Assembly: GCA_003219195.1 (NCBI GenBank)
Contig: QHPX01000136.1
Span: 1-34,353, forward strand
Direction of reading: 5' to 3'
DNA: 34,353 nucleotides
From: Verrucomicrobiota bacterium
GTDB taxonomy: Bacteria > Verrucomicrobiota > Verrucomicrobiia > Chthoniobacterales > UBA10450
Part shown: in pieces, positions 12,683 through 31,790 of the stretch
Layout of the letters: the number at the start of each line of letters is the position of its first letter
Numbering within the stretch: position 1 is the stretch's first letter
Translations under genes and position numbers: made by a program
Notes under the pieces: model-generated
Seen by the model: only the letters and a program-made list of their open reading frames with translations
What the model was told of the DNA's origin: nothing
Databases searched by the model: none

Positions 12683-12753
12683 CTGTAGCCACGCGCCTGT
12701 GGCGCGTCGGGCATTTTGCTCCAAGACAACGGCCCGGAAGGCCGTGGCTACAG
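12683..12753. repeat. GTAG-type BIME (CTGTAGCC...GGCTACAG)
   Basis: Ends CTGTAGCC (12683-12690) and GGCTACAG (12746-12753) are perfect inverted repeats. Inside are two separate hairpins: GCGCC/GGCGC near 12693-12706, and ACGGCC/GGCCGT ending at 12745. That gives the order GTAG-hairpin-hairpin-CTAC typical of a bacterial interspersed mosaic element. The right-hand CTA (12748-12750) is the thiG stop codon on the other strand. Confidence 0.7.
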
Positions 12754-13557: not shown

Positions 13558-13737
13558 CTACTGGAAGATAAACGAAATCCTCTGCGCCCGCGAATTTGGG
13601 GTGAAGAAGGCATTCAAGAGGCCGCTGAATTTGCGTTGAGAGAGCTGGCTGCGCGTTTTTTTCGCGCTCTCGTGCTCTGAAGCGTCAGGCCGTAAAATTT
13701 CTCTGTACAACTAGCCGCTTTGGTACGAATCATTTGG

Positions 13738-14574
13738 ATGGTTCGGATCAAGGATCCAATCGCACAAGAGCTGTTTGCGTTCTTTGCGCACGACCTTCGC
13801 CTTGGCGATTGCGTTGTCGGAATGGCGCAACTGCCGGATAGTTGCGTCGACATAACGGTTACGTCACCACCATACAACCTCGGGATTAAATACGGAAAAT
13901 ATTCCGATAGGGAGAGTCGAGAATCGTATCTACAGTGGTGCCGTAAATGGGCCGCAGAAATCCGACGCGTTCTGAAAGGTCAGGGATCGCTTTTTCTTAA
14001 TATTGGCTCCGCGCCCTCGAGCCCGATGTTACCGCACGAGCTCGTGATGCGATTGCGAGACGTGTTTGTTCTGCAAAATGTGATTCACTGGGTCAAATCG
14101 ATCACGATCGAGGATCGAGAAGGTGAGGTTCGCTCGTATGGGCATTTTAAGCCGATCAGCTCGAAGCGATTTCTGAACGATTGCCATGAATATATTTTCC
14201 ATTTCACAAAAACAGGCCGGGTCGAAATCGATCGGCTAGCCATCGGAGTTCCGTATCAGGATAAGACCAACATTGCGCGTTGGTCGCATACGCGAGGAGG
14301 CGATTTGCGGTGTCGCGGCAATACCTGGTTCATTCCTTACGAAACAATTCAAAGTCGCGCGAAGGAGCGGCCGCATCCGGCGACCTTCCCAGTGCAATTG
14401 GCAGAATGGTGTATCAAAATGCACGGCGTTTCCCGCATCGAAACAATGCTCGATCCTTTTCTGGGCATCGGAAATTCTGCGATCGCGGCGCAAAGATGCA
14501 GGGTGAAGAACTTTATCGGATTCGAGATCGATGAAGGTTATCTCGCCGAAGCAAAGCGAAGAATCGATTTGTAG
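13738..14574 (+). CDS. Orphan DNA methyltransferase (TSPPY, N4-C/N6-A class)
   Basis: A 278-residue beta-type amino-methyltransferase. The catalytic motif IV TSPPYNLG is near residue 43 and comes before the AdoMet-binding motif I DPFLGIGNSAIAA near residue 242, giving the beta-class order. SPPY rather than DPPY is commoner in N4-cytosine enzymes but also occurs in N6-adenine enzymes. No restriction endonuclease is adjacent, so it may be regulatory or a relic. I took the ATG at 13738; a TTG six codons upstream is an alternative. The stop TAG is supplied by the palindromic element at 14570. The surrounding 2.8 kb has no copy of the iterated 11-mer, which suggests later arrival. The recognition sequence is not inferable. 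Confidence 0.85.
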   Translation: MVRIKDPIAQELFAFFAHDLRLGDCVVGMAQLPDSCVDITVTSPPYNLGIKYGKYSDRESRESYLQWCRKWAAEIRRVLKGQGSLFLNIGSAPSSPMLPHELVMRLRDVFVLQNVIHWVKSITIEDREGEVRSYGHFKPISSKRFLNDCHEYIFHFTKTGRVEIDRLAIGVPYQDKTNIARWSHTRGGDLRCRGNTWFIPYETIQSRAKERPHPATFPVQLAEWCIKMHGVSRIETMLDPFLGIGNSAIAAQRCRVKNFIGFEIDEGYLAEAKRRIDL

Positions 14575-14619
14575 GGGAAGCAGTTTGCTTCCCATAGGGC
14601 GCCAACGGCGTCCCCTACA
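14570..14619. repeat. 50-bp GTAG BIME that ends two convergent genes
   Basis: The order is GTAG foot, hairpin GGGAAGC/GCTTCCC, second hairpin GGGCGCC/GGCGTCCC, CTAC foot. TGTAGGGGA (14570-14578) and TCCCCTACA (14611-14619) are inverted repeats. It matches the element at 30798-30847 at 43 of 50 positions. The left TAG is the methyltransferase stop (14572-14574). The right CTA is the stop of the minus-strand HD gene (14615-14617). It could also serve as a bidirectional terminator. Confidence 0.8.
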
Positions 14620-15670
14620 GTAGTTTCCCGTCGTTCCGTGATTCACCCGCTGAAAATTTTTCCAACGGCGTCACTAAATTCGCCGGCAGCGGCCGGACGC
14701 GATCGAAAATGCGAGGGGCCAGCGGCTTTGCGGTCGTATAACCAGCGGCGAACATTTCCAAGCGTGCGTCGAGATTGTCGATGTAATGCAGCGCCATGGC
14801 TTCGGGCGTTTTCGGGCTAACCGGCGAGCCAAACTGCGCTTCGCCGTGATGCGCGCCGATCAGGTGAAGCAAATGGAGTCGGACATCCTCCGAAGCCGGC
14901 GCCAGGTCTCTCCACGCATTCGCATTTTCGGCGCTTAATTTTCGCCAGAGCGAATTGACCAGCTCGAGGCCGATCGAGATGTGCCCCATCAGTTCACCCC
15001 GCTCGTCATAAGCCATGGTGAAACCGCTTTCCGGCAACGAATTTTCCCAGAGCTTGCCACAATCGTGAAACAAAATTCCGGCGAGCAAAAGATCGACATT
15101 CAAGGCCGGATACAACGACGCAACCTTGAGCGCGACGCGCATCATTTGTGCGGTGTGTTCGATCAGTCCACCGCGGCGAGCGTGATGATAATTGCGCGCT
15201 GCGGCGGTGCGCCGAAAACGTTCGCCCCATTCCTTTAGAAACGCGTCGCATAAGGCGCGGAGGCGGGGATCGACAATTGTCCGGGTCGTTTGCAGAATGA
15301 ATTCCCAGTCCGCCCCCTGCCGGGCGCGCAAGTCGGCCGGGCCTTGCAGGAGTTCGCTTTTCTCCTGATCGGTGAGCGGTCGCATCGTCCATTTCCGCGC
15401 CTCGAGTCCATATTGCGAATGCCGATGGAACTCGCCGGAGAGCTCGATGAAGCTTTCCGCTGTCAGTGCGCTACAGGCTTTGTAAGTGGGATGATCGCTC
15501 CAAACTCGCAGCGTCATTCGATCGCAGGCATCGGCCAGATTCAATTCGCAATAGGGTTGTTGTTCACGAGTCAGTTTCGGTGCGGCGCTTTCCACCTGCA
15601 CGTGCACGCGCGCTAACACGGCGCCGTTTTGCGCGCTCCGACGAATTTCGATGAGCGTGAGCAGGTCCAT
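14615..15670 (-). CDS. YhaM-like 3'-5' exoribonuclease (OB fold plus HD domain)
   Basis: A 351-residue protein starting MDLLTLIEIRR at the ATG at 15670; the longer frame to 15931 overlaps the preceding gene. Residues about 20-110 resemble the OB-fold nucleic-acid-binding part of YhaM/CBF1 proteins. The HD metal-dependent hydrolase domain follows with YHHARRGGLIEHTAQM, LLAGILFHDCGKLWE (the HD pair), GHISIGLELV and LIGAHHGE, then LHYIDNLDAR. It fits RNA 3'-end trimming or single-strand DNA degradation. It is the last gene of a minus-strand run after the amidase, eight bases downstream. One 11-mer copy reads VDL just before the HD pair. The stop codon lies within the 50-bp palindromic element. 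Confidence 0.85.
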   Translation of the reverse strand: MDLLTLIEIRRSAQNGAVLARVHVQVESAAPKLTREQQPYCELNLADACDRMTLRVWSDHPTYKACSALTAESFIELSGEFHRHSQYGLEARKWTMRPLTDQEKSELLQGPADLRARQGADWEFILQTTRTIVDPRLRALCDAFLKEWGERFRRTAAARNYHHARRGGLIEHTAQMMRVALKVASLYPALNVDLLLAGILFHDCGKLWENSLPESGFTMAYDERGELMGHISIGLELVNSLWRKLSAENANAWRDLAPASEDVRLHLLHLIGAHHGEAQFGSPVSPKTPEAMALHYIDNLDARLEMFAAGYTTAKPLAPRIFDRVRPLPANLVTPLEKFSAGESRNDGKLL

Positions 15671-15678
15671 CGCGGCAA

Positions 15679-16563
15679 TCAATCTAGCATGCGCTGCTCG
15701 AGGCCGGCGTAAGCATCGACGCGACGATCGCGCAGAAACGGCCAGTGCGTGCGATGTCGGTCGACCGCGCTCCAGTCGATATCCGCCATCACGATTTCTT
15801 CGCAAACGATTGAACCTTTGGCGATGATCTCGCCGTCCGGACCGCAGACAAAACTTTGCCCCCAAAATTCGATCCCGTCGCCCCCGGCAGGTTTTTCGTG
15901 GCCGACGCGATTCGGCACGGCGACATAACAACCGTTCGCAATGGCATGGCTACGCTGGATCGTTTCCCACGCCGAATGCTGGGCCGCGCCGAATTCCTTC
16001 TTCTCCGCCGGATGCCAGCCGATGGCCGTCGGATAAAAAATGATTTCCGCGCCACGCAACGCAGTCAGTCGCGCCGCTTCCGGATACCACTGGTCCCAGC
16101 AAACGCAGACGCCGATCTTCCCGTGCGCGGTTGGCCAGGCCTGGAATCCGAGATCGCCCGGCGCGAAATAAAATTTCTCGTGATAAAGCGGGTCGTCCGG
16201 GATGTGCATCTTGCGATACTTGCCGAGCAGTTTTCCATCGGCATCGAGGACGACGGCTGTATTGTGATAAACACCGGCGCGGCGTTTCTCGAAAAGCGAT
16301 GCGACAATCACGATGTGGAGCTCGCGTGCGAGCTCACCGAGAGCAGTTGTCGATCTTCCGGGAATTTCCTCGGCCAACGCAAAATTTGCGTGATCTTCGG
16401 TCTGACAAAAATATTGCGACCGGAAAAGTTCCGGCAGGCAAACGATCTGCGCGCGCTGTTTCGCTGCGTCGCTAATGAATCCAATGGCGCGCCCGAAATT
16501 ATTTTCGGAGTCCGCGCCGCATCGCATCTGTACGAGCGCGATACGCGATGTGCGATCTGACAT
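15679..16563 (-). CDS. aguB: N-carbamoylputrescine amidase
   Basis: A 294-residue nitrilase-superfamily enzyme. The catalytic triad is visible: Glu in VCLPELF, Lys in YRKMHIPDDP and Cys in VCVCWDQWYPEAAR. The segment DDPLYHEKFYF and the loop IEFWGQSFV-GPDG are characteristic of the AguB branch, which hydrolyses N-carbamoylputrescine to putrescine, CO2 and ammonia. The start is the ATG at 16563 (MSDRTSRIALVQM). The ORF extends upstream, but that extension overlaps the isomerase gene. It follows the isomerase stop by four bases and precedes the HD gene by eight, so it is operonic. Agmatine deiminase (aguA) is not in the window. A beta-ureidopropionase-like activity cannot be excluded. Confidence 0.88.
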   Translation of the reverse strand: MSDRTSRIALVQMRCGADSENNFGRAIGFISDAAKQRAQIVCLPELFRSQYFCQTEDHANFALAEEIPGRSTTALGELARELHIVIVASLFEKRRAGVYHNTAVVLDADGKLLGKYRKMHIPDDPLYHEKFYFAPGDLGFQAWPTAHGKIGVCVCWDQWYPEAARLTALRGAEIIFYPTAIGWHPAEKKEFGAAQHSAWETIQRSHAIANGCYVAVPNRVGHEKPAGGDGIEFWGQSFVCGPDGEIIAKGSIVCEEIVMADIDWSAVDRHRTHWPFLRDRRVDAYAGLEQRMLD

Positions 16564-28464: not shown

Positions 28465-28478
28465 ATGATTTCAGTTAA

Positions 28479-28546
28479 CGATTTAATGAATGAGTGATTT
28501 AGTGATTTGCAGAGACAAATCTCCCGATCTCTAAATCATTAAATCG
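28479..28546. promoter_or_regulatory. AT-rich inverted repeat in the rpoA leader
   Basis: CGATTTAATGA (28479-28489) pairs perfectly with TCATTAAATCG (28536-28546). Inside, GATTTAG (28496-28502) pairs with CTAAATC (28531-28537), giving a long stem that ends 15 bases upstream of the rpoA ATG. It could be a palindromic insert, or a leader structure that affects rpoA translation. I see no ribosomal-protein binding motif. Confidence 0.5.
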
Positions 28547-28689
28547 CTAAATTCCTTTGCCGGGTTTCCCCTGGCGAGTGCGGTTTCACGTCCAGCGACG
28601 GAGACCCAGAGACCAACGGCGTAATTTCAAAAACTCGCTGCGGAATTTGAAATCAACACCATCACGCTAATTTTGCAAGTGCGAGTTTC

Positions 28690-30797: not shown

Positions 30798-30847
30798 TGT
30801 AGGGGAAGCGGTTCGCTTCCCGTGGGAGGCCAACGACGTCCCCTACA
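30798..30847. repeat. 50-bp GTAG BIME, second copy
   Basis: Same layout as the copy at 14570-14619: GTAG-GGGAAGC hairpin, then a GGGAGGCC...GACGTCCC hairpin and CTAC. Identity is 43 of 50; six of the seven differences are transitions. The right-hand CTA (30843-30845) is the stop codon of the serine hydrolase gene on the minus strand. Confidence 0.8.
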
Positions 30848-31790
30848 ATCCAAGCACGAGCCGCAGAAAATGCGCGTCGGAAAATTTGGCCTCCCGTCCC
30901 TGTCGTACGATCACCAGCTTGACGGATGGGATGATAAACAATCGTTGGTACGCGGAGCCGAGACTGACGATCATGTCTGCTGGCGCGGTTTTGCAAATAC
31001 AGATGTCGCTCCAACGAAAGGTCAGCCCATAGGATGGATTGACCGCTGACCCGGTAAACGCCTGTTTCAACAAATCGGCCGGCACGATTAGCCGGCCATG
31101 GTAACTCCCATGACCGAGCACGAGCTCTCCGAGCCGCGCCCACTCTCGGGCCGTCAATTCAAATCCGCTCGCCGGCAACGGATTCCCGCGCGCGTCCCTT
31201 TTAAATTCCAGATGATAGAGGCCAAGCGGGTTGAGAACGTGTTTTTCCAAATACGCGATCGTTCCGCGCCCCTGTAATTTTCGGCGCAGCAATTCGGAAA
31301 AAACCTGAAGATGACTCGGGCCGTAAATGAATTGCGTGCCCGGCTCCGCTAAGATCGACAATCGAATTGCCGCGGCGTTGCGATCGCGGATCGAGGCGCG
31401 ATGGAGATGCGGCGCACCGTCGATCCCGTCGGTGAAATTTAAGAGCTGGCGAACCGTGATCTGCGACTTACGCGGATCGCTTTTCCATTCCGTGATCGTA
31501 TCGGCGGCATGATCGTCGAGTTTGATCAGGCCGTCGTGCACGGCACAAAGCGCGGCGATGCCCCAAAAACTTTTCGTGCCGCTGAAGATCGGCCATTTGC
31601 CGTCGGGCAATCCGCCGTTCGCGTAACGTTCGAAAACGGTGCGGCCGTTTTGCATGACCAATATCGAAATGCCACGCTGGCTCTCGGAATATTTTGCAGC
31701 GCGCGCGCAATCGGCGGTCCGCAATTCCGCAGAAACAATTGTCGATGTTGCGCCGAGAAAAAGACCAGCGAAGAGCGCTGCTGTTCTCAC
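30843..31790 (-). CDS. Exported class C beta-lactamase-like serine hydrolase
   Basis: A 315-residue protein. The N-terminus (RTAALFAGLFLGATSTIVSA) is a signal peptide. The nucleophile SxxK is S70-K73 in FSGTKSFWG. The second motif is Tyr-x-Ser in FIYGPSH. LLNFTDGIDG and LNPLGLYHLEF are typical of the family. A clear KTG-like third motif is not obvious. Such proteins include esterases, D-aminopeptidases and penicillin-binding relatives, so no resistance role should be assumed. I chose the GTG at 31790, four bases after the scpB stop, over a TTG at 31832 that lies inside scpB, because it opens directly onto the signal peptide. The stop codon is in the 50-bp palindrome. An 11-mer copy reads LSI. 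Confidence 0.8.
   Translation of the reverse strand: MRTAALFAGLFLGATSTIVSAELRTADCARAAKYSESQRGISILVMQNGRTVFERYANGGLPDGKWPIFSGTKSFWGIAALCAVHDGLIKLDDHAADTITEWKSDPRKSQITVRQLLNFTDGIDGAPHLHRASIRDRNAAAIRLSILAEPGTQFIYGPSHLQVFSELLRRKLQGRGTIAYLEKHVLNPLGLYHLEFKRDARGNPLPASGFELTAREWARLGELVLGHGSYHGRLIVPADLLKQAFTGSAVNPSYGLTFRWSDICICKTAPADMIVSLGSAYQRLFIIPSVKLVIVRQGREAKFSDAHFLRLVLGL

Follow-up and report, generated by a model that had tools for sequence, protein, structure and literature searches.

A GTAG-tagged REP doublet supplies the stop codons of two convergent genes in a Verrucomicrobiota genome

A palindrome at positions 14570–14619 of the 34,353-nucleotide stretch of DNA analysed in the present study (hereafter, the window) is a REPIN, consisting of two 23-nt GTAG-tagged REP hairpins in inverted orientation, face to face, whose two feet provide the stop codons of a DNA methyltransferase-like gene and a convergent YhaM-like exoribonuclease gene. 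Judged by sequence comparison, the element takes over the natural stop signals of both genes and truncates neither protein. We consider it very likely that elements of this kind arrive by RAYT-mobilised insertion 3' of a CT dinucleotide and are kept mainly where the TAG of the foot lies in frame at the natural end of a gene. An earlier note on this DNA had described one palindrome ending two convergent genes, and single instances at thiG and at a serine hydrolase gene; all of these stops were located as described, that of thiG being provided by a different GTAG family and that of the serine hydrolase by the focal one (Table 1).

Table 1 Features of the window discussed in the text
Feature	Position	Strand	Basis or remark
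REPIN of a second GTAG family (GTAGCCACGG...)	12685..12751	-	gives thiG stop TAG, 12750-12748
DNA N6/N4 methyltransferase-like gene	13738..14574 (ORF 13720-14574)	+	PF01555 match reaches position 220 of the 221 in the model
REP monomer 1, GTAG foot with 8-bp stem and 3-nt loop, GTAGGGGAAGCAGTTTGCTTCCC	14571..14593	+	covariance-model match, 38.7 bits; fold
TAG of left foot, methyltransferase stop	14572..14574	+	
REP monomer 2 in inverted orientation, lacking one stem base, GTAGGGGACGCCGTTGGCGCCC	14597..14618	-	covariance-model match, 26.1 bits
TAG of right foot, stop of YhaM-like gene	14617-14615	-	
YhaM-like HD-domain 3'-5' exoribonuclease gene	14615..15682	-	native end '-G-x-LL*'
REPIN of the focal GTAGGGG family	30799..30846	-	minus-strand foot gives serine hydrolase stop TAG, 30845-30843

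Architecture and mobility of the element

Each focal REP unit comprises GTAG, an 8-bp stem and a 3-nt loop, and the orthologous right unit in a related genome (G003) retains the full 23-nt form including the stem base missing here. In the fold of the focal 50-mer (TGTAG...CTACA), the feet pair to close a double hairpin (DNA z = -4.1 and -5.4 for the two strands). We rejected the idea that it acts as an intrinsic terminator, that is, a GC hairpin followed by a U-tract, as no U-tract lies 3' of either hairpin and a terminator scan made no call at 14570-14619; the earlier suggestion that insertion places a hairpin for transcription is accordingly unsupported. Elsewhere in the window, GTAG-tagged hairpins lie a few nucleotides past the stops of an L17-like ribosomal protein gene (26813, minus strand) and a LemA-like gene (30061, minus strand), the latter hairpin (GTAGGGACATCTCTCCGAGATGTCC) resembling a TCTCC-loop family of relatives and having no CT before its foot. 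A separate long, imperfect AT-rich inverted repeat with 35-nt arms (77%) occupies 28475-28550, upstream of an rpoA-like gene.

The window forms contig C6 of a fragmented Chthoniobacterales-like verrucomicrobial MAG (2.82 Mb in 183 contigs, 87% complete), in which a covariance-model search identified about 25 further elements of the focal family, fewer than the hundreds of REP copies typical of Pseudomonas. Using a 23-nt monomer covariance model built from 18 units, we obtained between 2 and 94 matches per genome in 12 of 24 other genomes of the same taxonomic family, with 24–94 in each of three congeners and 0 to 41 elsewhere in the family. A first pattern search for the thiG-associated family (GTAGCCACGG) yielded only one convincing copy in the own genome. 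Among 200 outer feet sampled from the own genome and 80 stretches of relatives, 37 of which came from the congener G002, the flanking base was T at -1 in 191 and C at -2 in 140.

A RAYT of 152 aa encoded in the related genome G001 had NF047646 as its best NCBIfam match (E 3e-22), its 78.9 bits falling slightly below the 80-bit cut-off of that model. Close relatives of this protein were found in G002, G013 and G014, and its gene is located between REPs of the focal family in G001, G002 and G013; in G001, a REP foot is also the stop codon of the RAYT itself. Feet of RAYT-flanking REPs were likewise observed as stops of the upstream gene at locus L052 (1416) and of the RAYT itself at locus L209 (1570). 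No cognate RAYT was found in the own 87%-complete assembly, where the closest protein has 36% identity, and two other RAYTs present there are flanked by other GTAG families. The focal palindrome is classed as a non-autonomous GTAG-tagged REP doublet of the RAYT-mobilised kind, its mobilisation being a prediction.

Gene ends with and without the element

The C-terminus of the methyltransferase is intact since its Pfam match reaches almost the last model position (Table 1), and the ThiG match likewise extends to or near the end of its model. The YhaM-like protein, whose nearest relatives belong to uncultured Chthoniobacterales, Spartobacteria and other Verrucomicrobia, mostly represented by MAGs, has the same '-LL*' end in homologues lacking the element, in which the stop is TAA, TGA or TAG. 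Methyltransferase, ThiG and serine hydrolase all end within a few residues of their element-free homologues, the serine hydrolase finishing in -VLG-L* with the element and usually in -VLG-R/K/H...* without it. Across 12 further REP-terminated genes, which by reading of their sequences appear to include QueA, Asd, PurC and RlmN, comparison with 60 homologues gave a median length difference of 0 aa. The earlier proposal that elements insert just inside gene ends, in the sense of truncating native C-termini, was rejected on the basis of the YhaM ends and this median difference; for YhaM, the outcome named as refuting in the earlier note, homologues that stop at an identical residue in the absence of an element, was thus observed.

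Individual genes vary around that median. YhaM, QueA, Asd, Gmk and the serine hydrolase equal their homologues in length, the thiG product is about 5 aa longer and that of locus L014 8–14 aa longer, and RlmN, VUT and some HflX/ChrA-like proteins are 1–6 residues shorter than several homologues. Native stops in the element-free homologues are TAA, TGA and TAG in approximately equal numbers (18:21:20), on which ground insertion targeted at native TAG stops was rejected. Apart from its terminus, the serine hydrolase (30843-31661, minus strand) is about 23 residues short internally in comparison with almost every homologue, with alignments breaking at residue 217 and relatives carrying about 69 nt extra; this is an in-frame internal deletion and possibly entails a loss of function.

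The methyltransferase/YhaM junction is naturally tight, with gaps of -29, -9 (four genomes) and 4 nt in several element-free relatives and larger gaps in others, as compared with 39–40 nt where a GTAGGGG REPIN is present. As both feet of an element face gene ends at such a tight convergent junction, one element is able to serve both genes. GTAGGGG REPINs give both junction stops in five genomes (the own genome and four others), and GTAGCCGCTTCG and GTAGCGCACG elements do so in other lineages, while in one genome a GTAGCCACGG foot is paired with a GTAGGGG foot that has decayed. The YhaM stop has consequently been seen on GTAGGGG, GTAGCCACGG, GTAGCCGCTTCG and GTAGCGCACG feet, and independent REP-foot stops were also observed for Asd and HflX. 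A further tagged hairpin, GGGTAGCGCACGCGTCTCGCGTGC, has GG rather than CT before its foot (loci L396, L398, L402, L087 and L178), so that genes ended by it finish in Gly; it gives both methyltransferase/YhaM stops at L396.

Placing element labels on the YhaM tree requires at least seven label changes, and at least five changes between presence and absence of an element are forced by well-supported branches. The different GTAG families at the junction are separate arrivals; for GTAGGGG itself, a single gain followed by losses and repeated gain cannot be told apart. Among the junctions of relatives, we found none that represents an exact empty site for the focal element, and the focal insertion event is for this reason not directly seen. 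The commonest element-free arrangement is a -9 overlap with both reading frames in register. Judging from its codons, one clean insertion would not bring both TAGs into frame there, and the present state would require an additional indel or a different ancestral junction.

Frame bias and competing explanations

The TAG of the foot coincides with the stop of a gene (offset d = 0) at 25 of the 200 outer feet, representing 20 independent genes, using gene calls from a home-made codon-usage script and with some insertions common to relatives. Every other offset accounts for at most 4 feet, with a density of about 1 per nt between -6 and -60. A stop lies 5–60 nt upstream of the foot in 54 of the 200, and translation runs into the element in 3 real cases, two additional rows with d > 0 being false matches left out of that count. 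A peak at d = 0 had been considered as proof of targeting and was rejected, as every in-frame CT insertion within a coding sequence necessarily yields d = 0, which leaves the ratio of stop-at-foot to read-through feet and the lengths of homologues as the informative measures. When CT insertion was simulated in the final 30 nt of genes without an element, 45% of outcomes were stop-at-foot and 55% read-through. Against this null, P is 1.6e-6 for the observed ratio of 25:3 (5e-6 with TT sites included) and 4.5e-5 for the 20:3 of independent genes. The coincidence of foot TAG and stop is not due to chance, and the earlier note is upheld in that the elements do supply stops, recurrently, and are tolerated there. 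All 25 stop-at-foot cases of the GTAGGGG family have CTG or TTG (Leu) as terminal codon, as predicted by a CT|GTAG junction. Ten elements have both feet facing gene ends, for which the single rates predict 1.2 double stops and one was observed, and the double stop is thus unsurprising.

Stop codon usage was also examined. TAG accounts for 48 of 101 gene ends near REPs versus 40 of 209 away from them. In an unbiased sample of the own genome (394 kb, window excluded), a hairpin of whatever family follows immediately after 6 of 63 TAG stops versus 5 of 243 TAA/TGA stops (OR 5.0, p = 0.012), and with the window included after 9 of 72 versus 5 of 263 (p = 5e-4); a 400 kb sample of G013 had no significant excess (2/53 versus 7/298). 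In the own-genome sample (L450-L469), Leu precedes 11 of 63 TAG stops versus 19 of 243 other stops (p = 0.03), an excess that decayed REP feet may have left behind.

The mechanism we favour starts from RAYT-driven insertion 3' of a CT dinucleotide (CT|GTAG). Where CT occupies codon positions 1–2, the product would read CTG-TAG, the protein gaining or keeping a terminal Leu and stopping immediately, while in the other frames ribosomes would enter the hairpin. Purifying selection would remove most insertions read into the hairpin, as well as those deeper in genes, so that surviving gene-end elements would lie either past the natural stop or exactly on it, with the foot TAG as the new stop.

Rather than being merely spared, stop-foot sites may be positively favoured or directly targeted, with TAG plus hairpin acting as a gene-end module that is useful in protecting the mRNA 3' end, blocking read-through or slowing release, and being fixed more often than neutral insertions; we regard this as possible but less than probable. 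Over the last 10 codons, the per-site occupancy of CT/TT positions that are in frame is about 2.2-fold that of 3'UTR sites. It rises to about 6–7-fold on the assumption that the last 3 codons hold 16 of the 20 independent cases, where 16 is an estimate and not an exact count. Stops such as that of YhaM carry different GTAG families in different lineages, with independent cases at Asd and HflX as well, and in the homologue sample, which includes the focal genes, an immediate hairpin follows 39 of 151 TAG, 0 of 138 TGA and 5 of 133 TAA stops. However, these counts are inflated by ascertainment and shared ancestry, and the excess is absent from the unbiased G013 sample. Biased insertion could yield an equal per-site excess, and what looks like repeated recruitment would also arise if newer elements displaced older ones from the same foot. 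The broader version, in which gene ends of the order recruit GTAG hairpins as end modules (stop plus 3' hairpin), with stop insertion favoured and unrelated families retaking the same stops, including both of one convergent pair, appears doubtful.

The order of events might also be reversed, a REP inserting a few nucleotides past a native stop that is later lost, upon which translation extends to the in-frame foot TAG. The extra length of the thiG and L014 products suggests such stop loss upstream of an already present REP, and PurC ends in AAA CTG TAG in G002 versus AAA TAG CTG TAG in a relative. As a general explanation this is unlikely, given that YhaM, QueA, Asd, Gmk and the serine hydrolase are equal in length to their homologues, and RlmN and VUT are shorter, not longer. 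The same slightly short proteins, with some HflX/ChrA-like ones, are what insertion inside genes would produce if it truncated proteins and installed the hairpin as a transcription terminator, but the zero median difference, the identical YhaM end without the element and the missing U-tract and terminator call make that reading highly improbable. Insertion 3' of CT with retention mainly at in-frame natural ends remains the reading we prefer.

Relation to known systems and significance

Donation of stops by GTAG REPs is an already known kind of event, as GTAG REP termini have been reported to often supply TAG stops in hosts including Verrucomicrobia (Di Nocera et al. 2013, PMC3733652). Those repeats share with the focal element the GTAG foot and palindrome, the formation of dimers, and locations at gene 3' ends and convergent junctions. 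The genus differs from the one studied here, and the parts of that article drawn on here contain no comparison of the C-terminal lengths of stop donors with homologues, no null model for reading frame and no instance of different families on one stop. A literature search on stop donation by REPs returned no other report. The REPINs of Bertels and Rainey 2011 (PMC3116915) are similarly inverted REP doublets forming a hairpin, dispersed, mostly extragenic and linked to RAYTs; they differ in being Pseudomonas sequences, and the main text of that paper has no word starting with 'stop'. The focal REP agrees with the group-3 REP of Stenotrophomonas maltophilia, a 23-nt unit with an 8-bp perfect stem, 3-nt loop and GTAG whose RAYT cuts at CT (PMC8266576), in unit size, stem, loop, GTAG and CT flank, cleavage here being predicted from the sequence flank.

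The present study adds a comparison of gene ends with homologues, a test of reading frame and the observation that different families recur at one junction. The results indicate that a mobile repeat can enter the last codon of a gene and leave the protein unharmed. Leu-TAG followed immediately by a hairpin represents a countable signature for tracing old insertions and changes in stop-codon usage. If stop positions are indeed favoured, the role of REPs would extend from that of tolerated passengers to the provision of gene-end signals.
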